A DNA stretch of 64,000 nucleotides from Herbaspirillum sp. CF444. Its GTDB lineage: Bacteria; Pseudomonadota; Gammaproteobacteria; Burkholderiales; Burkholderiaceae_D. Made by a program: the position numbers and the translations under genes. The notes under the pieces were generated by a model. It worked only from the letters and a program-made list of their open reading frames with translations. It made no database searches and was not told where the DNA came from. Shown one piece after another: positions 6,606-64,000 of the stretch (positions are counted from its first letter, which is position 1; the number at the start of each line of letters is the position of its first letter). The stretch covers positions 186,001 through 250,000 of the forward strand of contig NZ_AKJW01000058.1 of the NCBI RefSeq assembly GCF_000282135.1, read 5' to 3'.

Positions 6606-6643
6606 TTCAGGCATAATGCGCGTTCTGATTGCTTAGCTGGTGA

Positions 6644-7144
<501 letters not shown>

Positions 7145-7215
7145 CTGATTTGTAATTGCCTTGTCCGCATCCTCTGCGGGCAAGGCAGGTTGTATGAGAA
7201 GAGAGCGGAGTATTT

Positions 7216-7473
7216 ATGGCACTGATGATCACCGATGATTGCATTAACTGCGACGTCTGCGAGCCTGAGTGCCCGAACGAAGCGATCTACATGGGGCCGC
7301 AGATCTATGAAATCGACCCCAACAAATGCACCGAATGCGTCGGCCATTTCGACGAGCCGCAATGCCAGCAAGTCTGCCCGGTCGCCTGCATCCCCTTCGA
7401 TCCGGCCTGGCGCGAATCCAAAGAACAACTGATGGTCAAGTACGAAACTTTGCAGGTTGCGGCCAAAGGCTGA
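7216..7473 (+). CDS. 2[4Fe-4S] ferredoxin, YfhL type
   Basis: Small electron carrier of 85 residues. The first cluster motif is CINCDVCEPECPNEA; the second is CTECVGHFDEPQCQQVCPVAC, with the 7-residue insertion between the second and third cysteines typical of the YfhL/Allochromatium-type ferredoxins. The rsmD-coaD-fdx order is common in proteobacteria. The gene has its own short upstream gap (71 bases) but no obvious promoter box. Confidence 0.93.
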   Translation: MALMITDDCINCDVCEPECPNEAIYMGPQIYEIDPNKCTECVGHFDEPQCQQVCPVACIPFDPAWRESKEQLMVKYETLQVAAKG

Positions 7474-7688
7474 AGGGCTCTCCACGTACATCCCCCCGGC
7501 ATCCTTGCCGCATCCGCCACATCCTCGTGGCGCCATAAGAAAATCCTGCTTGCTTATCGGTAGTCAGTATTTCTGTTGTGCCGTTCTGGCGCGGTATCAT
7601 CGTCGCTTGTCTGTTCTTTAGCCATTTCCTTCGTCTGTCGTTGCGCCGCTCTGCCGCGCTTCAATCCTCTTTTGTCTGGAAAACCGCC

Positions 7689-50332: not shown

Positions 50333-51400
50333 TTACCGATAGGTCCCGGCGTAAGGAGCCACTGCGTCAACATTTTTGATTGTAATCAGAGGCGCCTCGG
50401 TACTGATTTTTTGTAGCGTATAGGATGGTACGAGATTGTATTTTTCAATGCGTTGCCTGAAACTCGCGTTCTCATAGAGGGTCTTTCTGATGTTGAACAC
50501 GGCGCGAGTGTCTTGCCTGAGCATGATCGCCAAAATGGCAACCGGCAGATAACCTTGCAGATAGGGCTGTTGGTCGACAGCAACCTGTACCACTCCCTTG
50601 CGAATGGCGTCAATGACCTTGGGCGAATAGTCGAAGGTGACAAAGAATATTTTCTTGTTGGTTGCGCCGGAGGTTTCAATTGCGCGAATGGCCGGCTCGG
50701 CCGATAGCGGTCCCAGCGCCAAAATCGCGTCCGGATAAGGGGGGCTACTCAACTTTCGTGCAATCTCGTTTTGCGCTGCAACCGGATCCTTTCCAACTTT
50801 CACCAGATCCCAATTTCCACTGTTACCAAGCATCTCGGCAAAACCGTTGCAGCGCGCCAGCGCGGAAGACGATGAGTCAAGATGGCTGATGCAGAGCAGG
50901 GAACGAACACCGGCCGCCTTTGCCAATCGGCCAACCTGCATGCCGGCCCGGTAATCGTCCAGGCCGATATGGGTGAAGGCTCCTACTGCTTTGGATTCCT
51001 CCTCGGTTCCGTTGTTAATGGTGATCAGGGGGACCCTGCGCCCACTGATGCCTTGCAGAGCAGGACCGGTCATCGAGAAGTCTGCCAGCGTGCTGATGAC
51101 GGCGTCATAGCCGGCGAGTTTTTCCAGCAACGGCTTCATGGCCCCGGTGCCTCCCTGGGGGGCGTTGAGATAGTCGGTACTCACGCCAAAATCGGCATCG
51201 GCGTCCTTGATCCCGTTCTTGACGACGTTCCACCATGGATCGCCATCGGGAGCATGGCTGACCATAGCGATGCGAAAGGTGTCGGCCCGGGTTTGAGTGG
51301 TCGTCCCCATCAAGGCAATTGCAATACATACCGCCATCGCGATGCCGCCTACGCCCGCCGTGCGTAAATTTGCCGGAAATTTATTGCCAGTCTTGATCAC
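50333..51400 (-). CDS. Orphan periplasmic sugar-type substrate-binding protein
   Basis: Peripla_BP_4 (ribose/galactose-binding) protein of 355 residues. A long N-terminal signal has its hydrophobic core at GGIAMAVCIAIALMG and likely cleavage after TRA. Family motifs: FRIAMVSHAPDGDPWWNVVKNGIKDADADFGV, YDAVISTLADFSMTG, PLITINNGTEEES, AFTHIGLDDYRAG and KKIFFVTFDYSPKVIDAIRKGVVQVAVDQQPYLQGYLPV. No ABC permease or ATPase is next to it. It could serve a distant transporter or act as a sensor component; the sugar is unknown. Confidence 0.85.
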   Translation of the reverse strand: MIKTGNKFPANLRTAGVGGIAMAVCIAIALMGTTTQTRADTFRIAMVSHAPDGDPWWNVVKNGIKDADADFGVSTDYLNAPQGGTGAMKPLLEKLAGYDAVISTLADFSMTGPALQGISGRRVPLITINNGTEEESKAVGAFTHIGLDDYRAGMQVGRLAKAAGVRSLLCISHLDSSSSALARCNGFAEMLGNSGNWDLVKVGKDPVAAQNEIARKLSSPPYPDAILALGPLSAEPAIRAIETSGATNKKIFFVTFDYSPKVIDAIRKGVVQVAVDQQPYLQGYLPVAILAIMLRQDTRAVFNIRKTLYENASFRQRIEKYNLVPSYTLQKISTEAPLITIKNVDAVAPYAGTYR

Positions 51401-52410
51401 GATTTCGTTCTCCCCAGATCGTGTTTCAGTGCAGGACTCAATGCAGTTGGTTGCTTTGATGCCGACTCGCTCTTTACTCAGTCTGTCGCATGGGCGATTT
51501 CGCAGTTACGGGATAAGGGGCTGCAAACTTAACTGTCCTTGAGTTTCATGATACATGCAATCTAATTCTGCATGCACGGAATACTGCCTCAATAAGATTT
51601 CGTCCATGTTGATGCCGGTCCGATTTCCGGGCCAATCCACCCGCCGAGATGGGCGTGCGCCGATTTGGTCGGCACGACGTGTTCTTTTGGGACGCATCAT
51701 GAAATTGCAGGAGTGCAAGTCGGTGCTGGCTCAATTGGTTGTTTCTTGCGGCATCTCCACGCAACGACAAGCCTGCTTCTCGATACAGGTGTTCGGTACG
51801 TTGATGATTCACGACCAGACCTCCATGGCGTCACATGACATGCAGGCATGGAGAAGCGCCCGGCAAAAAATAGATCTCCGAACGAGCATCGACAATTTCT
51901 TCAACAAGCAAGCTGTTTCACAAGAGCGTAGGTTTTGCCGCCAGGACGGCGCTCTATAACGAGCCCGGCTGTTCGTTGTTCATGACGTGCATCTGTCGAA
52001 GTTGCCAACTTCGTTCTGAAGCGCGCTTGGTTGCCGAAATTCTGCGTGCCCGATCCGGTTAAATATCCCAAAACTTCATGAGGATATTGGCTGGGGGCAA
52101 GTGGCCAAAGCCCGCGAAACCTCGGTAGTTCCCTTTGGGTTCTCTTTTGCCGTCGAGGCCTCTCCTCTCATGGCTCAGCGGCGGCATTCCTCGACAAACC
52201 CAATGCCAGAAAGGCTTCAGAAATGTTGACGAACGGAAATGGGCGATTGCCCATTAAGTATTGGGTCTGCGGCCTGTGCATTATTGGGCCGCGCGCCATA
52301 TTCGGCCGGGGCGTGGCGCTTCATACTTCTATTCATGCGGTGTGGGGGTGGCGACCACCCATCTGCTCCTCTTTTCGTCCGGTCGCACTTTTATAGCGAG
52401 GTTTTAATCC
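51401..52410. promoter_or_regulatory. Long intergenic region upstream of the fimbrial pilin
   Basis: About 1 kb with no convincing gene; the 134-codon open frame at 51555-51959 has no family features. Palindromes: CGAAGTTG CC AACTTCG near 52007 and AATGGGC GATT GCCCATT at 52238-52255. The size and palindromes suit a regulated fimbrial promoter. Confidence 0.45.
52238..52255. promoter_or_regulatory. Palindrome AATGGGC-GATT-GCCCATT
   Basis: Perfect 7-base arms, 156 bases upstream of the pilin start. Related sequences are at 50163-50175 and, degenerate, at 63891-63907. It is a candidate binding site for a regulator of the fimbrial cluster. Confidence 0.4.
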
Positions 52411-52941
52411 ATGAAGAAAATATTTGTGATGCTGGCTCTTGCATCGCCGTCTCTTGTATTTGCCGCAGGCAATACGATTACGTTCCGCGGGCAAGTTGCC
52501 AGCCAGACCTGTCAGGTATCTGTCGATGGAGAGGTTAATCCGGTCGTGTTGCTTCCGACGGTGACCAAGGCCTCTCTGAGCACGGCAGGTGCAATTACCG
52601 GCGAGACGCCATTTACCGTCAGAGTCGATGGCTGTGCGGCATCTGCCGCCAGTGATGTGGCCATCAAAACCATGTTCCTGGTCAACGCTGCGACCTCGGG
52701 TGGGAACATTCCCAATGTCGGAACCGCCCAGAATGTCGCGCTGCAATTGCTGGAAGGCACCGGCGGAAATCCGGTAAAAATGGTGGCTGGCGCACCTACT
52801 TCGGTGAAGGGGCTCGTGTTGAAAAAAGGAACTGATGTGGCTGCCGAGTATACCTTTGCCGTGCGCTATATCTCTGAAGGCGGTGCCGCGGGAGTCGGAA
52901 CGGTGATCGGTTCCGTGCAGTACGCATTGGACTACCTTTAA
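52411..52941 (+). CDS. Major fimbrial subunit (pilin)
   Basis: Chaperone-usher pilin of 176 residues. The signal peptide ends SLVFAAGN. The mature part begins NTITFRGQVASQTCQVSVDG, with the cysteine pair (C in SQTCQV and C in DGCAASA) typical of pilin domains, and ends in the beta-strand ISEGGAAGVGTVIGSVQYALDYL with an alternating hydrophobic pattern and penultimate Tyr. It is 327 bases upstream of the chaperone gene, separated by a hairpin that may lower downstream expression. Confidence 0.93.
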   Translation: MKKIFVMLALASPSLVFAAGNTITFRGQVASQTCQVSVDGEVNPVVLLPTVTKASLSTAGAITGETPFTVRVDGCAASAASDVAIKTMFLVNAATSGGNIPNVGTAQNVALQLLEGTGGNPVKMVAGAPTSVKGLVLKKGTDVAAEYTFAVRYISEGGAAGVGTVIGSVQYALDYL

Positions 52942-53268
52942 TACGACGGTCTACCTGCGTCACGGCTGGGTTAGCGGCTTATCTGCCGTAGTCGTGACGC
53001 CGCATTCGCTACTGTAATTCTGCTTAGGGCCTTTTGGCCGAAGTAATTCTTGGATTGGTCTTGTCTGCAGCCATCACTTCATTGCTGGCGTCGCGTATTT
53101 AATTTGTGCGCATTCTTGACAGGTTCCCCTCTATGTCGGTTTTTTTACTTCTTTCGCCTTCTTAAGACGGCGATTCAATTTGTCGCGCCAGGGATTGGTG
53201 TGGCTTCTTTGCAATAGCAGTCGCGGGCTCACTAAGGAGCAAAAAAATAAGGCAGAAAGGGAAATAAA
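52942..53268. other. Intercistronic region after pilin, with a large hairpin
   Basis: GCGTCACG (52957-52964) pairs with CGTGACGC (52993-53000), with inner pairing possible. No T run follows. It may stabilise the pilin mRNA or reduce read-through, giving more pilin than chaperone and usher. No gene in the rest. Confidence 0.45.
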
Positions 53269-54009
53269 GTGAAAAAAACAAGGTTAATTTGCGGGGTATT
53301 TATGTTGGCAATTTCAATGGCAAGCACTGGCGCTTTGGCCAGCGTGACGATGCTGGGAACGCGTGTCGTCTATTCGGGTGGCGTGAACGAGCAGGCTCTG
53401 CGTTTCACCAATCCGGACGATCATCCCAACTTGGTTCAGGTATGGGTGGATCGTGGTAATTCTGCAGCAGGCATGGACAATGGCGAACCACAGTTCATCG
53501 TTAGTCCGCCAGTGTTCCGTATGGAGGCCAATAGTGGTCAACTGGTAAGGTTGTCGTATGTAGGTGACCCACTGCCCGACGACAGGGAGTCGCTGTTCTT
53601 TCTTAATTTCGTGCAGGTTCCGGCGCTTAAGAACACTTCCGCCGATTTCAACCAGCTGGTACTTACCGTGCGCAGTCGCATGAAGGTTTTTTATCGTCCG
53701 CCGGGGCTGGCCAGCGATGCCGATGCCAGTATCGCGCGCCAATCTCTCTCGTTTTCCATGGAGAAAACCAGCACCGGCAGCAAAGTGGTTGCACGCAACG
53801 ATAGCGGCTACTACGTCGTCGTCCAGCGTGCTGAGGTTGAAATGGATGGGCATGCTATCGAGGTCGCTCGAGCCACCATGATTCCTCCCCGTCAAGAAGT
53901 CAGTTGGGTGCTTCCGCCAGCACCGGCAGGCAGCGGAAAACGTCGTCTGAAGTTGAAAATCGTCAATGACTTCGGTGGCGATGTCGAGCAGGAGTATGTT
54001 GTTCAATAA
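53269..54009 (+). CDS. Periplasmic fimbrial chaperone (PapD-like), first copy
   Basis: Donor-strand chaperone of 246 residues. It starts at GTG after AAAGGG; the signal ends STGALA. The conserved arginine and lysine-type site is in RVVYSGGVNEQALRF, then VQVWVD and FIVSPPVFRMEANSGQLVRLSYVGDPLPDDRESLFFLNF, the family fingerprint. The short F1-G1 region suggests the FGS type. The usher gene overlaps its 3' end. Confidence 0.93.
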   Translation: MKKTRLICGVFMLAISMASTGALASVTMLGTRVVYSGGVNEQALRFTNPDDHPNLVQVWVDRGNSAAGMDNGEPQFIVSPPVFRMEANSGQLVRLSYVGDPLPDDRESLFFLNFVQVPALKNTSADFNQLVLTVRSRMKVFYRPPGLASDADASIARQSLSFSMEKTSTGSKVVARNDSGYYVVVQRAEVEMDGHAIEVARATMIPPRQEVSWVLPPAPAGSGKRRLKLKIVNDFGGDVEQEYVVQ

Positions 54010-56614
54010 GGCGGTGTTCGCGAGCACCGGCTGGTTGGCATGGATGGTAGCTACTATGGCGGTATCGCTGCCAACCAGTGCGCATGCAACAACTCAGTCG
54101 GGCAGCAGCACGCAAGAAAAAAAAGTGTCGGAATACCGTTTTTTAGAGGGGTTGGAAATGGCTTCACCAATCAATAAAGGGACGTTGTCACGTTTCAACC
54201 GTGTGGGCAACATCGAACCTGGCACCTATCGGGTGGATATGTTCGTCAATGGCGTATTCCGGGAGCGCCGCAGCATTCGTTTCGATGTGTTCGAAGGTCT
54301 GGGGGTGGCGGCGTGCCTGTCGCGTCAAGACTTGGCGGTCATTGATCTGCGACGAGACCTCGTGTCCTCTGCCAATGATAAAGAGTGCAGCCGTATTGAT
54401 ACGGTGGCCTCCGGCGCTACCGCGACCCTGGATTTTTCTGCGTTGAAGTTGGTCGTCAGCGTGCCACAATCGTTACTCAATGTCGAGGCGCGTGGCTATA
54501 TCGATCCGCAGCAGTACGACGCTGGCAACTCCATCGGCTTCGTCAACTACAACGCCAGTCAGTACTATGCGCGCCTGGGTAACAGCAGTAGCAGTTCCAC
54601 CTTTGTCTCGACCAGCAGCGGGCTGAACCTTGGGCTGTGGCGTCTGCGCCAGCAAGGCAGCATGCGTTATGATGCGCAGCATGGCTTCGCTTGGAATCCC
54701 ATCCGAACCTATGCCAAGCGCGCCATCGCCAGATGGGGCAGCGAATTGACGCTGGGCGAAAATTTCACGTCAGGCAACTTCTTTTCCGGTATGGGTTATC
54801 AGGGGATCGAGCTCAGTTCGGACCCACGCATGCTGCCGGATTCATTGCGCGGCTATGCCCCTGTCATTCGCGGGACTGCTCGCAGCAATGCGCAAGTAAT
54901 CGTGGCGCAAAAGGGCCGGGAGATCTATCGCACTACGGTGGCGGCGGGATCGTTTGTGATCGACGACCTGAATCCCACCAGCTACAACGGTGATCTGGAT
55001 GTCACTGTGATCGAGGCCGATGGATCGAGGGTGCAGTTCAGTGTGCCTTTTTCGTCGGTGCCGGAGTCGATGCGCCCCGGGATGTCGCACTACAGCCTGA
55101 CGTTGGGGCGCACGCGTGACAGCGATGCCAAGGACATGTTCGCGGATGTCATTTATCAGTTGGGCGTGAGCAATTCGCTTACGGTTAATACGGGCCTGCG
55201 TTTGGCACGCGGCTACCAGTCGGTCGCCTTGGGCGGCGTCTGGGCCGGAAAAATCGGCGCGCTAGGTATGAATCTGAATTATTCGCGAGCCGAAATCGGA
55301 GCCGGATGGCGGAGCTCCGGATGGATGTCCGGTTTGTCCTATTCGCATAGTTTTGCACAAACGGGCACCACCTTCTCGATTGCGAGCTATCGCTATTCGA
55401 CGGCCGGATACCGTGAGCTATCGGACGTACAGAACGAACGTCAAAATAATGCCAGGGATGCCGTTATTTCTACGACCTATAAGCAACGCTCGCGTCTCGA
55501 TGTGTCGCTGAGCCAGCAGTTGGGCAGTAGGGGCGCCATTTATCTGTCGGGTCTGACGCAGAACTTCTACGACAGCCGCAGTCGGTTGACGCAATTGCAA
55601 CTGGGTTATTCGACCGTCTTCAACAATGCGATAAGTCTGAACATTGCATTTCAGCGCCAGCAGACTACCAGCGATACTTCAATGTGGACGCAAACAGTTG
55701 CGCCAACCCGTGGCTCTTCGCTGATGGTATCGATGTCGATTCCTTTGGGCGTCCCCGCAGGGAATCGGCCGACAGTCAGTACTTCGTTTACCCGATCGGG
55801 CAAGGAAAACATGCTTCAGACGCAGCTTTCGGGAATGTCTGACGGTGAGCGCCATGTGAATTATGGCGTCGGCGTTAATCATGCTTCAGGCGGTGGTCAG
55901 GACAGCATTAATGCCAATGCAGGCGCCCGGTTCGCCAATGCCGCCGTGAGTGTCAATGCCAGCCATGGCCCTGGCTATTGGCAGACCTCTGCCAATGCTC
56001 GTGGCGCCATTGCGGTACATACCGGAGGTATTACGTTCGGACCGTACCTGGGTGATACCTTTGCTCTGATCGAAGCCAAGGGTGCCGAGGGAGCCAAAGT
56101 CTACAACGGTCAAGGTGCCGTGATCGATGGCAATGGATATGCGCTGGTGCCTTCCTTGTCGCCTTACCGGCGCAATATGGTCGGCCTGATGCCCGAGGGA
56201 ATAAGCAGTAAGGTGGAACTGACCGACGGGCAGCGTAGCGTGGTGCCTTATGCCGGAGCAAGCCTGAAACTGAGCTTCAAGACCAGACAAGGTAATGCAA
56301 TGCTTATCAAGTTGATCCGGCCGGACGGCAACCCGGTGCCGATGGGTGCCGATGTGCTGGACGAAGCCGGCAGTATTGTGGGAATGGTGGGGCAGGGAAG
56401 CCAGGCTTACTTGCGCAGCGACAAGTCCAAAGGCCGACTCGCCGTTCGATGGGGCGACCATAGTAGCGAAAGCTGCGCTGTGACTTACGACCTCACCGGG
56501 CGCGATACTGCCAAGCCATTGATCCGCCTGGAAGGCCAATGCAGCCCAGGCCAGCACCTCATTGAATTTATGCCGGCTTCCATTGAGCGGCAAACTGCAG
56601 CAAGGGAGAACTGA
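53996..56614 (+). CDS. Outer-membrane fimbrial usher (PapC/FimD family)
   Basis: Assembly platform for the fimbria, 872 residues from the start chosen at 53996, which gives a normal signal peptide (core AVFASTGWLAWMVATMAVSL, end TSAHA); ATGs at 53966 and 53981 are alternatives. The N-terminal domain is YRFLEGLEMASPINKGTLSRFNRVGNIEPGTYRVDMFVNG. A 24-strand barrel region with plug follows (FIARLC-like repeats, DLNPTSYNGDLDVTVIEADGS), then C-terminal domains with GADVLDEAGSIVGMVGQGSQAYL. It overlaps the chaperone by 14 bases. Confidence 0.93.
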   Translation: MLFNKAVFASTGWLAWMVATMAVSLPTSAHATTQSGSSTQEKKVSEYRFLEGLEMASPINKGTLSRFNRVGNIEPGTYRVDMFVNGVFRERRSIRFDVFEGLGVAACLSRQDLAVIDLRRDLVSSANDKECSRIDTVASGATATLDFSALKLVVSVPQSLLNVEARGYIDPQQYDAGNSIGFVNYNASQYYARLGNSSSSSTFVSTSSGLNLGLWRLRQQGSMRYDAQHGFAWNPIRTYAKRAIARWGSELTLGENFTSGNFFSGMGYQGIELSSDPRMLPDSLRGYAPVIRGTARSNAQVIVAQKGREIYRTTVAAGSFVIDDLNPTSYNGDLDVTVIEADGSRVQFSVPFSSVPESMRPGMSHYSLTLGRTRDSDAKDMFADVIYQLGVSNSLTVNTGLRLARGYQSVALGGVWAGKIGALGMNLNYSRAEIGAGWRSSGWMSGLSYSHSFAQTGTTFSIASYRYSTAGYRELSDVQNERQNNARDAVISTTYKQRSRLDVSLSQQLGSRGAIYLSGLTQNFYDSRSRLTQLQLGYSTVFNNAISLNIAFQRQQTTSDTSMWTQTVAPTRGSSLMVSMSIPLGVPAGNRPTVSTSFTRSGKENMLQTQLSGMSDGERHVNYGVGVNHASGGGQDSINANAGARFANAAVSVNASHGPGYWQTSANARGAIAVHTGGITFGPYLGDTFALIEAKGAEGAKVYNGQGAVIDGNGYALVPSLSPYRRNMVGLMPEGISSKVELTDGQRSVVPYAGASLKLSFKTRQGNAMLIKLIRPDGNPVPMGADVLDEAGSIVGMVGQGSQAYLRSDKSKGRLAVRWGDHSSESCAVTYDLTGRDTAKPLIRLEGQCSPGQHLIEFMPASIERQTAAREN

Positions 56615-56616
56615 CG

Positions 56617-57972
56617 ATGAAGAAAATACTGCTGCGCCTAGTGGCGCATGGTTTAGCGTTGACGAGCCTTATCTTGGCCAGCCCCGCGCAGGCGCGATGC
56701 GAACGTAACAATTATTCTGCCTATCCCACTACACCTATCCTGGACGACGGCTCGGCGCAGTTCTGGTTCGGTCGGGTCAACCTGACCAATGTCGCTCTGC
56801 AGCCGGTCGGTACCATCCTGGGATCGGCGACGGCTACTGCCGGCCAGGCTCGTGGTATTAATGACGAGACTGTCATGTGGACCTGCGATATCAGCGACAA
56901 GGACGAGCTATACGAGGTGTTCGCCACCAACGGCGATGATCGGGTCGGTGGCTTCAGTGAGATTGGTACGAAGGATGGTTTGCCTGGGTTTTATCAAACA
57001 TGGTTTCCCTATGTGGCCATCAAAGTGACCCATGTGCGTTCGGGCAAGGTGTTCTCGCGGTTCTATCAGTCCGCCAAGCTGACGGAGTATGACTTAAGTC
57101 CAGACGGCAAAAAGATATTCATCAAGGCCAAGCATTTGAGCCCGGTCAAGGCGGAGATTGCCAGGGTGTCGACCGCCGACAGCACTGGGTGGCCAGGTAA
57201 CTGGTGTCCTGGAACCCCAGCGCTTGGCGGCGGCAACGCTGCGGTTTACACCTGCACGCAACCGAATGCGTACCTTTCATTTCGGGGGCCGGGCTATACC
57301 GACAACGATCCGGATGGCACCGACAGTGCACGACAATGGCGTTTTTTTCCGACCAACGGGGTGGCGTTCGGTATGCGTCAGGGGACTTCCCTGAGCAACA
57401 CGGCGAGCTGTGTGGTGCGCAATGCCACACCAGAAGTATATTTTCTGCCGATCACGATCGAAGAGCTCAAGCGCGGGGAAACACGTGAGGCAAATTTTGC
57501 AGTCCAGTTGGAGTGCGATCGCTCCGTCAACTCCGGTGTAGCTATCAACCAGACGGCTATCGGGATTCAAGTGTCTGCCGGTGCTGAAGCCAAAGCCCGG
57601 CAAATGGGATTGACGACGTCTGGCGGAGGCATTACGTATCTGTTGTCGGATAACTATGGCGCTGACTCCTCAATGGCCACGGGGGTGGGTATTCGCCTGA
57701 GTGACGGCGAGACCGGCCAGACCATGAATTTCCTGGCCAATTCGGCAATCACAGGCCAGGGCTTCGTGGCCAACGACGGTTCGAGATGGTCGGCGAAGAT
57801 GGGGCCTGACGCCGGCTGGTACCCGGCAACCCGAGGGGGAGGAGGGGCAGGCGGCAGCACGTTCGATGTCACGCGTTCATTTGCAGCCACATTGAGCAAG
57901 CTGCCTGGCGCCAACGTGATTACACCGGGGCGAATCCAGGCTAGCGCCTACGTCGTGGTGAAGGTGCAATGA
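56617..57972 (+). CDS. Fimbrial tip protein/adhesin, two-domain
   Basis: Secreted protein of 451 residues; signal ends ASPAQARC. The N-terminal part (about 26-260) has paired cysteines (C28, later TCDISD, NWCPG, YTCTQ) and looks like a receptor-binding domain. The C-terminal part from about 270 (ASCVVRNATPEVYFLPI through ASAYVVVKVQ) is a pilin-like domain ending in alternating hydrophobic residues for donor-strand exchange. It starts 2 bases after the usher stop and overlaps the second chaperone. The receptor is unknown. Confidence 0.85.
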   Translation: MKKILLRLVAHGLALTSLILASPAQARCERNNYSAYPTTPILDDGSAQFWFGRVNLTNVALQPVGTILGSATATAGQARGINDETVMWTCDISDKDELYEVFATNGDDRVGGFSEIGTKDGLPGFYQTWFPYVAIKVTHVRSGKVFSRFYQSAKLTEYDLSPDGKKIFIKAKHLSPVKAEIARVSTADSTGWPGNWCPGTPALGGGNAAVYTCTQPNAYLSFRGPGYTDNDPDGTDSARQWRFFPTNGVAFGMRQGTSLSNTASCVVRNATPEVYFLPITIEELKRGETREANFAVQLECDRSVNSGVAINQTAIGIQVSAGAEAKARQMGLTTSGGGITYLLSDNYGADSSMATGVGIRLSDGETGQTMNFLANSAITGQGFVANDGSRWSAKMGPDAGWYPATRGGGGAGGSTFDVTRSFAATLSKLPGANVITPGRIQASAYVVVKVQ

Positions 57973-58796
57973 TGCGGCTGATCCACTGGTTCTCTTGTGT
58001 ACTAAAGCGCATGGCGAAGCGCAGGCAGCTGTGTCTGGCTGCTTGGCTCATTGCTTGCTCCGGAGTAGCGCTGGCCGGGGTCATGGCTGATCGTACCCGG
58101 GTTATTTTCAGCGACGGTGCACAGGCGCAAAGCGTCACCCTCGTCAATACCAACGACTATCCGGTGATGCTGCAGATCTGGGTGGACAATGGCGAGGGAA
58201 GCAGTATTCCCGACACCATCGTATCGTCGATGTTCGTCATGCCGGCCGTATTTCGGCTGCAATCGCACGAAGTCAAGTCGATACGCGTGCTTTACACAGG
58301 GGACGTGTTGCCGGCCGGGCGGGAGTCGCTCTCGTGGCTCAATCTCTACGAGATTCCCATCCTCCCGGCCGGTGACCAAAACAATGACACACCGCGGGTA
58401 CTGCTTGGACTCAATACCCAAATTAAAATTTTCTATCGGCCTGAAGGTTTACAGGCGCCCGCAGGATCGATTGCAACGGCATTGGATTTCCAGATCAGGC
58501 GGAAAGACGAGCAATGGTTCGTCGTCTGCCACAACCGAAGCGCCTATTTTGCTTCGTTCGGAGGCATGGCTGTACAGGCTGGGGATCGACAATACCCGAT
58601 ACAGCAGTTGCCCGATATGATGACGCCGCCCATGGGAGAGGGAGTCTACCCGATCGCTGCAGAGGTTGGTGTCCGGTTCGATCGGATCAGCGCCAGCCTG
58701 AATTACACGCTGATTGATGATTCCGGAAATTTGGTGGCAGGTGCCGCCAAGTTGAATGCCGTCATTTCAGCCGATTCAGCAGCAAATAAGGAGTGA
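57969..58796 (+). CDS. Periplasmic fimbrial chaperone, second copy
   Basis: 275 residues with start MMRLIHWFSC and a signal core LAAWLIACSGVALAGVM. Chaperone fingerprints: RTRVIFSDGAQAQSVTLVNTNDYPVMLQIWVDNGEG, FVMPAVFRLQSHEVKSIRVLYTGDVLPAGRESLSWLNLYEIP and LNTQIKIFYRPEGLQ. It is only moderately similar to the first chaperone, so each may serve a different subunit (shaft versus tip). It overlaps the tip gene by 4 bases and ends 4 bases before the EAL gene. Confidence 0.92.
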   Translation: MMRLIHWFSCVLKRMAKRRQLCLAAWLIACSGVALAGVMADRTRVIFSDGAQAQSVTLVNTNDYPVMLQIWVDNGEGSSIPDTIVSSMFVMPAVFRLQSHEVKSIRVLYTGDVLPAGRESLSWLNLYEIPILPAGDQNNDTPRVLLGLNTQIKIFYRPEGLQAPAGSIATALDFQIRRKDEQWFVVCHNRSAYFASFGGMAVQAGDRQYPIQQLPDMMTPPMGEGVYPIAAEVGVRFDRISASLNYTLIDDSGNLVAGAAKLNAVISADSAANKE

Positions 58797-58800
58797 TGCT

Positions 58801-59658
58801 ATGAATGCAATTACCGAAACCAACTTCATCTATGCTGCGAGCCGTATCGAGCGCAGCCAGTTGCTCGCTGCGCTGCACGACAACCAATTCCATCCTTATT
58901 TTCAACCGATTGTGTGTGCTGATGGGGCCTGGCAGGGAGCTGAAATGCTGATGCGTTGGCATCACCCACGCCATGGCGTGTTACCTCCGGCAGAGTTCCT
59001 GACCCAGTTGGCTGAAGAAGGCCTGTTGGTCGCAGCAACGCGTCAGATTCTGACCAAAACGAGGAACACTTGGCGCGAAGCGACATTGCGCTTGAATCGG
59101 CCGTTCTTTCTTTCGTTCAATGCCTGCCTTGCACATTTGCAGAGTGCCTCATTGCCAAAGGAATGCCGGTCTTTTCTGAAACATATGGACGATCGCCAAC
59201 TGGGATTGATGGTTGAGATGCCCGAGCGCGGTGCAGATCTGACTGCTGACCATTGCGCAGCTCTTTTTTGCGAGTTGGGAAATGCAGGTGCTACCGTTGC
59301 CATTGACGATTTTGGGATTGGCGATGCACGACTGCATCAGTTTGCTTGCGGTCCCATCAGTTGCGTCAAAATCGACCGATCCTTCGTCGAGCAAATGGAG
59401 AGTAATCCCATGTATGGGCGTTTAATCGCAAAGATTGTCGATCTTGCGCGTGCATTTGGTGCGCATGTCACAGCAGAAGGAGTCGAGACGGTAGCGCAAC
59501 ACCGCCGGCTGCGGCGCCTTGGCGTAGGTCTGTTCCAAGGTTATTTGTTCGGAAAACCAGTAGCGGCCCCGGAATTCTTTACTTACCTGAATGCATCCGG
59601 GGCGCTCGTTTCAGGAGACGAACCAGAGTGCCAAATGGCCACACCTAATTTAAAATAG
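58801..59658 (+). CDS. Stand-alone EAL-domain protein (cyclic di-GMP phosphodiesterase candidate)
   Basis: 285 residues, almost wholly an EAL domain. The signature reads EML (E48-M49-L50) rather than EAL. Other catalytic positions look present: N in SFNACLAHL, E139 in MVEMPE, D169-D170 in AIDDFGIG, K190 in VKIDRSFV, and E226 in AEGVET. So activity is likely but unproven. No receiver, PAS or membrane segment precedes it, unlike RocR of the Pseudomonas system. It begins 4 bases after the second chaperone gene (GGAG site overlaps that gene's end), tying it to fimbrial expression. Confidence 0.9.
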   Translation: MNAITETNFIYAASRIERSQLLAALHDNQFHPYFQPIVCADGAWQGAEMLMRWHHPRHGVLPPAEFLTQLAEEGLLVAATRQILTKTRNTWREATLRLNRPFFLSFNACLAHLQSASLPKECRSFLKHMDDRQLGLMVEMPERGADLTADHCAALFCELGNAGATVAIDDFGIGDARLHQFACGPISCVKIDRSFVEQMESNPMYGRLIAKIVDLARAFGAHVTAEGVETVAQHRRLRRLGVGLFQGYLFGKPVAAPEFFTYLNASGALVSGDEPECQMATPNLK

Positions 59659-59712
59659 GAGCGTCAGGAGGCATCGTCCGGTACTGATGGTGCGATCATA
59701 GACGTGCCAAGG

Positions 59713-60426
59713 ATGAAAAACATGAACCTGCCTGTGAAGCACATGGGATACAAGATGGAGTCGAAACAAATGGGGCGTAGCAATCTTATCAGGGTTGGAA
59801 TCGCTGACGATTATCCGGTGGTTTTACGGGGCGTGGAGAGCATTCTCGCGCCTTGCTCAGACATGGTGTTGAGCTTCGCCGCGGAAAGTATAGCGCAGCT
59901 CATGGACGGGCTGACACATTCTCCGGTCGACGTATTGCTTTGCGACTATGCGTTCGATGACGATCCACAGGCCGATGGCCTGAACTTGCTCCGTAAGATT
60001 CGGCGTCATGCTCCAGAGATGCGAGTCATTTTTCTTAGCGCGCATGCACTTTCGCACATCATCTCTGGTGCACTTGAACTGGGAGCTGCCGGCTTTATTG
60101 GTAAAAACAAGACGGACTTCGTCAATCTTCCGCAGGCGGTGCGCAGCGTGTACGCCGGCAATATCTATTTGCCACAATCATTGTCGGCGCTGCTGCTGGA
60201 ACAGATCTTCACCCATCAGGCAGGCCAGGTAGGCCTGCAGAGTCTTTCAGAGCGTGAATCGGCAGTTGCCAGAATGATATGCGAAGGACTATCAATCAGA
60301 GCCATCGCTCAGCGTCTCCATCGCAGTCCGAAAACGATCAGTAACCAGAAAGTCGCGGCGATGAAGAAGCTTGGGGTCAGCAACGACGTCGAGTTGAGCC
60401 GGGTCTTCAGAGACTTGAACGAATGA
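59713..60426 (+). CDS. NarL/FixJ-type response regulator
   Basis: Receiver plus LuxR-type helix-turn-helix, 237 residues from the ATG at 59713; the real start may be later (59755 or 59770), since receivers usually begin just before IRVGIADDYPVV. Phosphate-accepting D78 lies in LLCDYAFDDDP, the switch Ser in FLSAHAL and Lys in GFIGKNK. HTH: LSERESAVARMICEGLSIRAIAQRLHRSPKTISNQKVAAMKKLGVSNDVEL (about 175-225). It resembles BvgA/FimZ/RocA regulators and is 10 bases before the kinase gene. Confidence 0.93.
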   Translation: MKNMNLPVKHMGYKMESKQMGRSNLIRVGIADDYPVVLRGVESILAPCSDMVLSFAAESIAQLMDGLTHSPVDVLLCDYAFDDDPQADGLNLLRKIRRHAPEMRVIFLSAHALSHIISGALELGAAGFIGKNKTDFVNLPQAVRSVYAGNIYLPQSLSALLLEQIFTHQAGQVGLQSLSERESAVARMICEGLSIRAIAQRLHRSPKTISNQKVAAMKKLGVSNDVELSRVFRDLNE

Positions 60427-60436
60427 GGTAGCACGC

Positions 60437-63400
60437 ATGCCTCGCCAGATCCTTGCGCTTTCAGAGCGCTACTATCGCCGCATGCTGTACGGATGCGCCG
60501 CCTTGCTGTCGGTGGCCATCATCTGTGCATTGTTGTTTCTAGGGTACAGCGCTTTCAGCCAATTTCGAGAGCGGCAAGTTGGGTTATTCATCAGCAAGCG
60601 AGAACAGATTAAGGCTGAAGCCGATCGTTTGGCTGCGCGAGTCACGCAATTCGCGGAAATGTACGGACGGCTGCAACGTCTGTATCAAAACGACATACTG
60701 TCGCCAGAAGGGTATCTGACCAAGCCGGAAGGAGGGGGGATTTTCACCACGCCCGATACCCTGACAGTGGTGCCGTTTTCAATTGTTGGCAACTTGACTC
60801 CCACGCGCGACCGCGCTTATCTGAGCAGCCTGCTGCAGTTGCTACGGCAGGCATCGGCTTTGCCGATCTTTAATCCTGCCGAGCCGGGCGTAACCCTCAA
60901 TGGCTATCTCTATACGTCAGATCATTCTTTCCTGGCGATTTCGCCGCCGCTGGCATCTGAAGAGGCGCGCATCGTCGGGCAGCAAGGTAGCCACACCTTC
61001 ATCGGCAATATGGGGTTGCAGGTTGACGCTGCATTTGCGCGCGAATTTGCTCGCGCCGCAGATGCGCAGGGCAGCGTAGGACACAAGGTGATCTGGTGGA
61101 GCCCATCAGGCAATGCACCGATAGCACGCGACGCTATTACCGGGCTGGCTGTACAGATCCCCCTGACTAACAGCCATGTGGCCACCGCAGTCTTCTCGGT
61201 GCCGGGCAAGCAGTTTCACCAGTTCTTCATGAGTAACGAAAGCGTGCCTGGACTGTTCGTGCTGGATGCAGGGAATAATGGACGTCTTCTGAGCGACTGG
61301 CATTTTCCTTTCGATAACACCGTTCTGGGCCATGTACGCGACAAGTCCGGACAAGCGGCGCGTGATGGCAATCACATCACTTATTTTCGGGTGGGCAGCT
61401 ATTTTTTTATTACCCAGAATATCGATGCACCCGGCTGGACAGTCGTCTATTCGTTTACATGGAGAGATATCATAGATGGTCTGCATGGTGACTTCACCAT
61501 CGGTGCATTTTGGGGTTTGTTCGCTTTGTTTTTTGTTTGGGCCGCAACCTTGTACTTCGACAAATTTGTCATCAGTCCCTTGCAGAAGAAGGCACTGGCG
61601 CTGATTGAAACACGCCAGTTCAGTCAGACCATCATCGATACGCTGCCGGTAGGAATCGCCGTGTATGCGTTTGGCACTGGCCAAGTAGTGCTGCAAAATT
61701 CCGTGGCGTCTCAGATGCTGGAACACTCGCTCATTCCACACAGTGAGTTTTATGCCCAGATCGTAAGGGAATGCAACCTTTTGGGGCAGCACTCGGAGAG
61801 TGATCTCGATCATTCGATGATCGAAGCGGAAATACGCCTGCGTGACGGTGGCGCCAGCTATCTCGGTTCGGTCTGGGCCCGCACGCGCTTTGCCGGTCAA
61901 GACGTGGTCTTGCTGGGCATGATCGATATGAATATGCACAAAGCGCACGAAGCGCTGGTGCTTGAAGCAAAGACCATGGCGGATAAGGCTAACCAGGCGA
62001 AGTCGATGTTTCTCGCACAGGTTAGTCATGAGATTCGTACCCCCTTGCATGGGGCCATTGGACATATGGAGCTGCTGGCGCGCGATGACTTAAAGGATCA
62101 GCAGCGTCAGCGCGTGGAGCTGATCAGGCATGCCTTCGACATGCTGATGAGCTTGGTCAATGACATCCTGGACGTCACTAAAATTGAGGCCACATCGATA
62201 GAGCTGAACAGCACCCTGGTCAACGTCAATGACCTTCTTGAAGAATGTGCGCAGCTATTTGCACCATTGGCGCTCAATAAGGGATTACAGTTCTATTGCC
62301 TGCCATCGCCGGCATTCGAAGAACCCCTGTTGGGGGATCGCCAGCGCTTGATGCAGATACTCCAAAACCTGGTCGGCAACGCGGTGAAGTTTACATCGCA
62401 CGGTGCTATCACCCTGGCGGTGACTCGGATGACCAGCGAGGATTTGGCCGGAGTTGTACGTTTCGAGGTCACCGACACGGGAATCGGTGTTTCACTCGCT
62501 GCCCGCCAACGTATCTTCGAATCGCTCGAACAGGCCGACGAAACTATTAGCAGCCGTTTTGGCGGAACCGGTTTAGGCCTTTCCTTGTGCCGGCGACTGG
62601 CTGAATTGATGGGGGGGCGCATTACCCTTACCAGCAAGGAGGGGGAAGGCAGCGTTTTTGGTGCCGAAATTCCTTTGGCTTCCACTGCATACCAGCCAGC
62701 GGCACAGACCCGGCCATTAAGCAATCGCGTGATAGCGCTGCATTGTCGGGTTGCCGTACTACGTGAGATGCTCTGCTCCTATCTGCAGCATTGGGGGGCT
62801 GAAGTACAAGTAGCGCCTTGCGAGGGGCACGTCGATATCGAACTTGTAGCACAGGATTGCGACGAGAAGCGGCTCGACTCCGACACTAAAGTAGTGTCGA
62901 TTCGGGCTGACGTTGTCAGGCACGGAACGACGCACGGAGGATCTGGTCAGGTCAGCGCTTTTGACCGCAAGTCATGGATTCTGGCCCTCGCCGATAGCGG
63001 CAGTGCGGACCTGCCTGCGATTCGAACTGAAGTCCCTGTGCCGAACGGGCGAGGCGACCTGGATATTCTGGTGGCCGAAGATGATCATGTGAATCTAACA
63101 CTGATCGAGCATCAGCTAGAGGCATTAGGTTATCGATCAGTACGTCTGACGCGAGATGGTGCCGAGGCGCTGGAGCAGTGGCAGTCCAAACGACCGGATA
63201 TCCTGATCACGGATTTGGGTATGCCACGGCTCGACGGCATTGCACTGGCCACCGAGATTCGCAAGCAAGACGCCCGCGCGGTGATCGTCGCTGCCACCGC
63301 GGTCAGCCACAGCAAATCAGACGATTTGCGTCTGAGTATTTTCAATGAAGTGATATACAAGCCGATCTCGATCAATACGCTGCAACGAATACTGGAAGGA

Positions 63401-63715
63401 CTCTGGCCTGTTTCCTCCGAGTCAAAATTCGAGAGTGACGGATGTGCGGCCAGCCTTGAGGAAGTTCTGCGGCAGGCGTTCTCCCAATCTTGGCCAAAAG
63501 AGAGGAGCAAGTTGATCGAGGCCATCGAGGACGGAGACACTCCCTTGATCATTCGTCTCCTTCATCGATTGCAGGGAGGGTTGCAGGCCTTGGGGCAGGA
63601 TGCAATGGCAGGGGAAAGTCTGGCTTTGCAGTCGGGGCTGGCCGGAGGCGATCTCGATGCATACAACCGTTGCAAGCAATGGATATCAGAGGTGGAGCGG
63701 TGGATTAAGCAGTGA
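60437..63715 (+). CDS. Hybrid sensor histidine kinase (HisKA-HATPase-REC-HPt)
   Basis: Membrane sensor of 1092 residues. One helix at about 16-38, a periplasmic domain of about 315 residues with no recognised fold, a second helix at about 356-378, a PAS-like region (about 390-500), HisKA with H531 in SHEIRTPLHG, HATPase with NAVKFTSHG, DTGIGV and GGTGLGLSLC, a degenerate receiver-like spacer (about 760-860), a receiver with D926 in ITDLGMP, and a C-terminal HPt with H1043 in LLHRLQGGL. A full phosphorelay could pass to the response regulator encoded just upstream. RcsC/BvgS/RocS-like architecture. Confidence 0.93.
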   Translation: MPRQILALSERYYRRMLYGCAALLSVAIICALLFLGYSAFSQFRERQVGLFISKREQIKAEADRLAARVTQFAEMYGRLQRLYQNDILSPEGYLTKPEGGGIFTTPDTLTVVPFSIVGNLTPTRDRAYLSSLLQLLRQASALPIFNPAEPGVTLNGYLYTSDHSFLAISPPLASEEARIVGQQGSHTFIGNMGLQVDAAFAREFARAADAQGSVGHKVIWWSPSGNAPIARDAITGLAVQIPLTNSHVATAVFSVPGKQFHQFFMSNESVPGLFVLDAGNNGRLLSDWHFPFDNTVLGHVRDKSGQAARDGNHITYFRVGSYFFITQNIDAPGWTVVYSFTWRDIIDGLHGDFTIGAFWGLFALFFVWAATLYFDKFVISPLQKKALALIETRQFSQTIIDTLPVGIAVYAFGTGQVVLQNSVASQMLEHSLIPHSEFYAQIVRECNLLGQHSESDLDHSMIEAEIRLRDGGASYLGSVWARTRFAGQDVVLLGMIDMNMHKAHEALVLEAKTMADKANQAKSMFLAQVSHEIRTPLHGAIGHMELLARDDLKDQQRQRVELIRHAFDMLMSLVNDILDVTKIEATSIELNSTLVNVNDLLEECAQLFAPLALNKGLQFYCLPSPAFEEPLLGDRQRLMQILQNLVGNAVKFTSHGAITLAVTRMTSEDLAGVVRFEVTDTGIGVSLAARQRIFESLEQADETISSRFGGTGLGLSLCRRLAELMGGRITLTSKEGEGSVFGAEIPLASTAYQPAAQTRPLSNRVIALHCRVAVLREMLCSYLQHWGAEVQVAPCEGHVDIELVAQDCDEKRLDSDTKVVSIRADVVRHGTTHGGSGQVSAFDRKSWILALADSGSADLPAIRTEVPVPNGRGDLDILVAEDDHVNLTLIEHQLEALGYRSVRLTRDGAEALEQWQSKRPDILITDLGMPRLDGIALATEIRKQDARAVIVAATAVSHSKSDDLRLSIFNEVIYKPISINTLQRILEGLWPVSSESKFESDGCAASLEEVLRQAFSQSWPKERSKLIEAIEDGDTPLIIRLLHRLQGGLQALGQDAMAGESLALQSGLAGGDLDAYNRCKQWISEVERWIKQ

Positions 63716-64000
63716 TGATTCGTCGTTGATGAAAAAAGCCCCGTTGGCGCTGGATAGCCAACGGGGCAAAAAGGTTGCATTGGTGGTTTAGTTAAGGGCG
63801 GGGGAACCGATGCAACCCGGGGGAGGCCTGCAGTCTAAATTGTGGACCAAGTGCGCTATCAGAATGTTACTGTCCGTGGAATGCCATTGAAATGGGCGAT
63901 CACCCAAGAGATGGCAAGACAAGGCTCATTGTCGCTCATCGCAAATCTCCGGCTCTCTAGAAATGTACGCTGTATGCGCTGGCGAGCCAGTATCCGACAT
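63716..64000. other. Right-hand end, no clear gene
   Basis: After the kinase stop there is a hairpin, then about 230 bases without a recognised gene. A 26-codon minus-strand frame (63859-63939) starts after GGAG and reads MSDNEPCLAISWVIAHFNGIPRTVTF in part; it may be a peptide gene or chance. Confidence 0.4.
63732..63773 (-). terminator. Intrinsic terminator for a minus-strand transcript
   Basis: GCCCCGTTGGC and GCCAACGGGGC form an 11-pair stem around GCTGGATA. On the minus strand the stem is followed by TTTTTT, on the plus strand by A residues, so it stops transcription coming from the right. Confidence 0.75.

Follow-up and report, generated by a model that had tools for sequence, protein, structure and literature searches.

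In a 64,000-nucleotide stretch of Herbaspirillum sp. CF444 (hereafter the window; positions 186001-250000 of contig C58 in a genome of 5.59 Mb), we find the genes of a chaperone-usher fimbria followed on the same strand by genes for an EAL protein, a NarL-type response regulator, and an unorthodox sensor kinase. We consider it likely that this row is a self-contained, laterally moving fimbrial unit that brings its own control. As listed below, the eight reading frames were confirmed on the + strand at the places given by an earlier sequence-only reading of the window, and the Pfam domains agree, except that the pilin, for which a Pfam search returned no match, is recognized by homology to relatives only (aa, amino acids; c-di-GMP, cyclic di-GMP).

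52411..52941, + strand: major pilin, 176 aa; 61-63% identity to the row's first gene in six other genomes
53269..54009, + strand: periplasmic chaperone 1; Pfam PapD_N, PapD_C
53966..56614, + strand: outer-membrane usher, 882 aa; Pfam Usher, PapC_N, PapC_C
56617..57972, + strand: tip subunit/adhesin, 451 aa; Pfam Fimbrial domain at the C terminus; 51-54% identical to the divergent tip gene of six relatives
57969..58796, + strand: periplasmic chaperone 2; Pfam PapD_N, PapD_C
58801..59658, + strand: stand-alone EAL protein, 285 aa, probable c-di-GMP phosphodiesterase; EAL 6e-52
59713..60426 (start uncertain: 59704, 59713, or 59770), + strand: NarL-type response regulator; Response_reg and GerE; 70-73% identical in relatives
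60437..63715, + strand: unorthodox sensor kinase, 1092 aa; N-terminal sensor region, HisKA, HATPase, Response_reg, Hpt

The signalling genes are closely packed behind the fimbrial genes. Four bases separate chaperone 2 (end 58796) from the ATG of the EAL frame at 58801, whose ribosome-binding site lies inside the last codons of the chaperone gene, and 10 bases separate regulator and kinase (8-29 bases across six relatives). These two gaps stand as first described, whereas the 54 bases claimed between the EAL and regulator genes hold only with ATG 59713 as the regulator start. The candidates are GTG 59704, ATG 59713, and ATG 59770, and the last, which makes the gap 111 bases, is likelier because the regulators of relatives start just before IRVGIADD. 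The Hpt match of the kinase (24.7 bits) lies at the Pfam cut-off (24.6) and its PAS match is weak and below the cut-off; SHEIRTPLH, TDLGMP, and LLHRLQGG, seen by eye, presumably contain the phospho-acceptor residues. A profile search with the kinase sensor region found no PDB relative at E 0.01, and the structure models were too poor to use, with a mean predicted local distance difference test score of 47 for the sensor region and 41 for the tip protein.

The arrangement of the row is not due to chance, because it is conserved in six other genomes, with the EAL gene reduced to a remnant in one. Within Herbaspirillum (34 genomes; G-numbered relatives are one genome per species), the five named genomes that carry the row, namely H. 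aquaticum IEH 4430, H. frisingense GSF30, H. huttiense NFYY 53159, Herbaspirillum sp. AP02, and Herbaspirillum sp. GW103, keep the order pilin-chaperone-usher-chaperone-EAL-regulator-kinase on one strand; the scan that found them was pattern based and would miss divergent loci. Several of these genes were hidden in the automatic list of open reading frames behind longer off-frame ones (the regulator in L036/L042; pilin, chaperone 1, and EAL in L040/L041) and were recovered by tblastn or by reading the frames. The tip gene is inverted in all six relatives, where it lies divergently upstream of the pilin; in the window it stands between usher and chaperone 2, its position also in four plasmid operons and in CupD. 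Usher orthologues occur in 7 of the 34 genomes (at least 1115 bits; next best 537), and orthologues of the kinase sensor region occur in the same seven (at least 1010 bits; next 450), a co-occurrence with a Fisher P of 2e-7 when 27 genomes are taken as without. The sensor search covered 392 genomes of the family, of which 18 matched and 7 held orthologues, and the results shown name 32 of the 34 congeners (all but G022 and G026). EAL orthologues occur in 6 of the 34 (at least 298 bits; next 127). Beyond the genus the searches were samples: the sensor-region profile matched only its own genome at E 1e-40 among 398 genomes of the phylum, and the EAL profile matched 22 of 369 genomes of the class, its own with 523 bits and the next with 158.5, all others in frames of at least 592 aa. 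The five-gene fimbrial order is also annotated on plasmids of P. aeruginosa, Proteus, and Acinetobacter, and of Serratia, there with an unannotated gap of 1 kb; the annotation shows no signalling genes next to these four plasmid fimbriae, in a gene table that is incomplete and covers 4 of 2218 usher-matching records.

Further, the row is present or absent as a block. Two flank genes, which by resemblance we take to be MetY-like and catechol-dioxygenase-like, lie 15.4, 15.7, and 14.3 kb apart in the carriers G020, G001, and G007 and 2.6 and 3.1 kb apart in the non-carriers G033 and G012; this comparison excludes G004, with its flank genes on different contigs, and G013, in which no MetY match passed. 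By alignment, the carrier-specific stretch is 11.7 kb in G007, 13.0 kb in G001, and 12.9 kb in G020, of which G033 retains 60, 1, and 85 bases, respectively, and G012 retains 52-64. The extra piece of G007 consists of the eight genes with 0.1 kb past the tip gene and 0.3 kb past the kinase; those of G020 and G001 run 1.4 and 1.7 kb past the kinase and include a porin gene. The block difference at this site may reflect either an insertion or a deletion. The porin gene, convergent to the kinase in three relatives (L170 14611-15972, L043 13278-14489, and L172 5203-6156, a partial match), is whole in G020, partly matched in G001, and also present in G004, and it lies inside the variable block of L170 and L172. 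The row also occupies other places: that of G011 is 2.6 Mb from the MetY gene, and the contig of the row in the window genome holds neither flank gene. By cytochrome b (Pfam), the nearest relatives of the window genome are G016 (99%), G009 (97%), and G015 (95%), none of which has the row, and the other carriers stand at 86-87%. The row proteins are 45-73% identical between the window and the other carriers, and the GC content of the window row is 0.553 compared with 0.603 in the first 38 kb of the window and 0.639-0.657 in the rows of relatives. Because the nearest relatives lack the row, its proteins are of low identity, and its GC content differs, the window copy was most likely acquired separately.

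The pilin upstream regions contain the inverted repeat ATGGG-N6-CCCAT, which was spotted by eye in a joint comparison of seven such regions and is a probable operator bound by the regulator of the row. The copies before the window pilin are as follows.

52239..52254, no strand assigned: putative operator 1, an exact copy of ATGGG-N6-CCCAT that begins 172 bases ahead of the pilin start; counterpart of the tandem sites of six relatives
52284..52299, no strand assigned: putative operator 2, a copy with 2 mismatches at a distance of 45 bases from operator 1

The six relatives have three tandem copies (0-2 mismatches) whose starts lie about 198, 163, and 118 bases ahead of the pilin (204, 169, and 125 in G011; 185, 161, and 117 in H. 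frisingense), counting the first base of the start codon as -1. Their spacings are 34-35 bases (24 in H. frisingense) and then 44-45, and the second of these matches the spacing of 45 in the window, where at two mismatches chance matches are common (29 sites with at most two in the window). Of the 13 sites with at most one mismatch that the loci of the six relatives hold, 12 lie upstream of the pilin; the window row itself contains none. When the gap between the half-sites was varied, the regions upstream of the relatives' pilins gave 12 matches with a gap of 6, two with 7, one with 5, and none with the others. The array upstream of the pilins is therefore firm. A wider cluster around the window row is suggestive. 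Exact sites number 4 in the window genome (control 1), and those with at most one mismatch number 59 (control 23). Six of the 59 fall between 51649 and the end of the contig, a 28-kb stretch whose left edge was chosen after the sites were seen; the rest of the genome predicts 0.27 and a first-order Markov model of that stretch 0.95, and among 20 letter arrangements of the half-site ATGGG alone gives more than one match there (6; the 19 others 0-1). Those 19 permuted half-sites gave no match upstream of the pilins or in two intergenic spaces of X. sacchari R1. In this genome a related regulator and kinase lie next to a different adhesin, and the only two sites with at most one mismatch in 27 kb (L104) lie in the EAL/kinase and regulator/adhesin intergenic spaces, which in this one genome links the motif with the regulator and not with the fimbria. 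Because the motif was found by eye and the 28-kb edge was set afterwards, the X. sacchari sites and the permuted half-sites outweigh the window match or cluster as evidence. From the sites before the pilin and their recurrence in X. sacchari, the regulator of the row probably controls the fimbria.

The EAL protein is most likely a phosphodiesterase. Pfam shows an EAL domain only and no receiver in its 285 aa, so its control must differ from that of RocR, as the sequence-only reading had argued. The same reading attached significance to the signature EML in place of EAL, to which we give no weight: it is unremarkable because the phosphodiesterase PdeL/YahA has EVL at the same place. With a single sequence as query, the closest solved relatives are YahA/PdeL and then PA3825, with RocR 10th of 38 (10th of 29 by profile search). 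In the alignment, E48, N107, E139, E142, D169, D170, K190, E226, and Q246, which we take to be the residues usually called catalytic, are identical to those of PdeL/YahA and are kept in all five EAL sequences compared. The ratio of nonsynonymous to synonymous substitution rates is 0.09-0.23 for the EAL gene (four pairs of relatives), compared with 0.11-0.27 for the chaperones and 0.09-0.15 for the usher. The kept residues and purifying selection thus indicate that the EAL protein is under selection in those carriers, while G011 dispenses with it. The EAL protein of X. sacchari was rejected as an orthologue, since its 30% identity is no more than that of unrelated EAL domains of the genus.

The conserved order, the co-occurrence of usher and kinase, the presence or absence of the block as a whole, and the operator-like sites before the pilin with none inside the row agree with the claim of the sequence-only reading that the unit is self-contained. 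We propose that the kinase would sense a signal through its N-terminal region and that phosphate would pass through its receiver and HPt domains to the NarL-type regulator, which, once phosphorylated, would bind the array before the pilin and turn on the fimbrial genes. Because the EAL, regulator, and kinase genes are close-packed behind the same putative promoter, activation would also raise the regulator and kinase, a positive feedback, and the stand-alone phosphodiesterase, lowering c-di-GMP; as the EAL protein lacks a receiver, transcription rather than phosphorylation would determine its dose. The protein would most likely restrain sessile behaviour, as a brake or an uncoupler, a role like that proposed for PvrR of P. 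aeruginosa. In its fullest form this makes a closed switch-and-brake cassette, in which one operator promoter would drive the fibre, its own activators (possibly all-or-none), and a phosphodiesterase that rises only with the operon, so that c-di-GMP would be lowered, by an unphosphorylated enzyme, in exactly the cells that make the fibre, and in which, in the window genome, the regulator may extend its command to a second fimbria and to a row with a stand-alone receiver-like protein on the same contig; this complete scheme is possible, and we put it forward tentatively.

Several findings weigh against this interpretation. First, the co-occurrence statistics ignore relatedness, and transcription of the row may not be continuous. 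A gap of 327 bases between pilin and chaperone 1, absent from the sequence-only reading, weakens the case for a single transcript; it holds hairpins, one of them without a T tail (z -2.1), and a terminator-like match (53182-53204) of a kind found in the region at chance level (15 found, 12.5 expected). In a promoter scan the DNA ahead of the pilin gave no sigma-70-like site, and a weak match came up at 59628-59656, immediately in front of the regulator (three found in the region and 8.3 expected from shuffles). This gap and this match leave room for uneven or separate transcription. The signalling genes could even be mere neighbours, the kinase-regulator pair controlling something else and the block being kept by joint acquisition. 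Similar pairs do lie beside a trimeric autotransporter in X. sacchari, beside chitinase and secretin genes in G019, and in other settings without fimbriae; but the array before the pilin in seven carriers, the lack of any site with at most one mismatch inside the row, the strict co-occurrence, and the short regulator-kinase gaps of the six relatives make this account very unlikely.

Second, the sites do not follow the regulator everywhere. The regulator of G019 is 56% identical, with a nearly identical recognition helix, yet no site with at most one mismatch occurs in the 20 kb around it, and most other exact sites lie at unrelated places, one of them presumably the gene before rimP. Exact matches occur in all 34 genomes, carriers or not (1-7 each), and several are common to both; carriers average 5.4 (7 genomes) and non-carriers 2.4 (27), with P 0.002 in a rank test that was done after subtracting one site per carrier and ignores relatedness. 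The cluster around the window row is also weaker than the genome rate suggests: in the 28 kb, a gap of 6 gives 6 matches, 11 gives 5, 4 gives three, and the others 0-2, and against the mean of nine other gaps (1.56) six matches have P 0.005 and five have P 0.02. A wider regulon drawn from exact matches was rejected, as in 15 chosen regions most sites lay inside mechanically listed frames or at unrelated genes. The ubiquity of the motif and the G019 case would suit inverted repeats that another host regulator binds while the local regulator acts elsewhere. We regard this as quite unlikely, because all but one of the relatives' sites are confined to the pilin upstream region and because the motif recurs at the regulator, kinase, and EAL genes of X. 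sacchari, beside a different adhesin.

Third, some findings bear on the role of the EAL protein. G011 keeps the fimbria and the switch with the EAL gene deleted internally (L064 about 6620-7645), so that between chaperone 2 and regulator only some 44 codons still match the EAL frame, with the rest of the order kept, and loop 6 reads DDFGIGDAR compared with DDFGTGYAT in YahA, a difference that may lower or retune activity. In P. aeruginosa PA14, moreover, a pvrR mutant showed no rise in cupD expression, according to the excerpt consulted (PMC2696094). The altered loop and the loss in G011 would both fit an EAL protein that is catalytically silent and acts by protein contact, or is simply drifting. 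Against this stand the nine residues kept in all five sequences and a purifying selection like that on the chaperone and usher genes, and we hold a silent protein to be unlikely. Our preferred reading remains an active phosphodiesterase that rises with the fimbria.

Several neighbouring features of the contig touch the row or its motif. The first lies just after the kinase.

63738..63767, - strand: terminator-like hairpin, T tail on the minus strand only

Because of its T tail, this hairpin is assigned to a convergent autotransporter gene, which it probably ends, and not to the fimbrial operon. The autotransporter gene separates the row from a second chaperone-usher set (pilin, chaperone, and usher) at C58 252392-256208 (L004 3393-7209), 3 kb downstream and beyond the window, with a 1-mismatch operator copy (L004 3278) 115 bases before its pilin frame. 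Another copy (L004 7651) precedes an OmpR-type regulator gene. On the - strand at L004 9204-12665 lie a stand-alone receiver-like gene (128 aa; Pfam 22.6 bits, below the cut-off), a gene for a PRTase-CE protein, and one for a protein without a Pfam match that by eye ends like a fimbrial tip subunit; an exact operator copy (L004 12781) lies 116 bases upstream of the receiver-like gene. Could this receiver-like protein serve the receiver-less EAL protein? A 1-mismatch copy after the kinase (63892-63907), with flanks like those of the pilin site and at a place where no promoter is expected, is perhaps a relic. A further 1-mismatch copy, at 51649, has an identical counterpart in H. frisingense; it stands 249 bases ahead of a gene for a Peripla_BP_4 periplasmic binding protein (50333-51400, - strand) that points away from the operon; this protein is a conceivable ligand-binding partner of the kinase. 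A third fimbria, on contig C44, has no site within two mismatches in the 380 bases upstream.

Literature searches on Herbaspirillum fimbriae and c-di-GMP, and on usher, EAL, and hybrid kinase genes together, brought up no description of such a unit among the matches listed (titles and abstract starts). The features that seem new are the joining of all genes in a single co-directional row, the combination of a receiver-less EAL protein with a kinase and regulator, the operator array, and the block-wise presence or absence of the whole. In P. aeruginosa the Roc and Rcs/Pvr networks have scattered loci and crosstalk, so that the roles of the EAL protein and the phosphorelay are hard to separate. 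In the Herbaspirillum row the same types of part are gathered in a small unit, with a single kinase, a single regulator, and a single EAL protein and with an operator array that can be mapped, and the genomes with the row, without it, or without its EAL gene (G011) form a natural set for asking why fimbrial operons carry c-di-GMP phosphodiesterases.

Among more distant relatives of the switch, the X. sacchari R1 megaplasmid (L104, 10455-23530) carries a kinase 40% identical over 1078 aligned positions, a regulator 56% identical, an EAL gene, and the same motif; the recognition helix, RSPKTISNQK-AAMKKLG, is the same as that of the row's regulator but for one letter. It differs in that the adhesin is a 1903-aa YadA-type trimeric autotransporter, the genes are not in one row, and the EAL protein, 30% identical to that of the row, has a weak receiver match. 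G019 (L065 8105-17135) has a related regulator-kinase pair beside chitinase and secretin genes, which indicates that kinases of this family work alongside several surface or secretion systems. G218 (L066 3476-17007) has a chaperone-usher set with an MrkD-like tip and then, on the same strand, a more distant regulator and unorthodox kinase, with an IS4/5-type transposase frame in between and no EAL match. In Bordetella, bvgASR with the fim genes likewise combines a NarL-type regulator, an unorthodox kinase, and an EAL protein, which control fimbriae, but BvgS has venus-flytrap sensor domains and the bvg genes are not known to share one row with the fimbria. The sensor part of RocS1 comprises two periplasmic SBP_bac_3 domains; a Pfam search found no such domain in the row's kinase. 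An unorthodox kinase (HisKA, HATPase, receiver, HPt) and a NarL-type regulator beside a cup operon are found in all seven genomes, and these parts are RcsB/RcsC and RocA/RocS in type; the EAL protein lacks the receiver that characterizes its counterparts in the Roc and Rcs/Pvr systems. The label "Roc-like" of the sequence-only reading thus fits the parts in type, and it rests on architecture.

The sequence-only reading had also held that the Roc genes are not inside the fimbrial operon in Pseudomonas, which leaves out cupD-rcsBC-pvrRS (PMC2696094), cupB-rocA3-rocR3 (PMC12051241), and the fim2 EAL gene (PMC3419637), here as described in excerpts of those papers. The excerpt on Klebsiella fim2 describes fim2K, a stand-alone EAL protein also of 285 aa, whose gene ends a chaperone-usher cluster, apparently on one transcript, and mentions no kinase or receiver-type regulator in that row; a stand-alone EAL gene within a fimbrial transcript was thus already known (PMC3419637). 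Beside cupB in P. aeruginosa/P. paraeruginosa, roc3 likewise pairs DNA-binding and EAL regulators with a chaperone-usher operon and retains remains of a RocS-type kinase, but its EAL protein, RocR3, is itself a response regulator, the rocA3 and rocR3 genes diverge, and the kinase is lost; RocR3 has a changed loop 6 and one changed catalytic residue, which were read as a sign of compromised activity, and still lowers cup expression (PMC12051241, excerpt). In PA14, cupD1-5 are the same five genes in the same order (pilin 182, chaperone 248, usher 870, adhesin 448, and chaperone 238 aa) and likewise adjoin genes for a NarL-type regulator (231 aa), an unorthodox kinase (1084 aa), and an EAL protein, a set thought to have been acquired jointly (PMC2696094, PMC3842833, excerpts). 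There, RcsB overexpression strongly activates cupD and PvrR overexpression halves it (PMC2696094), and RcsB raises pvrR and so dispersal (PMC3842833). PA14 differs in that its signalling genes are oppositely oriented, PvrR has a receiver, and there is a second kinase, PvrS, whereas in the Herbaspirillum row all genes point one way, the EAL protein stands alone, and there is one kinase. Likened by architecture and not by sequence, the overall plan of the row is close to that of P. aeruginosa cupD-rcsBC-pvrRS (PMC2696094) and roc3-cupB (PMC12051241).

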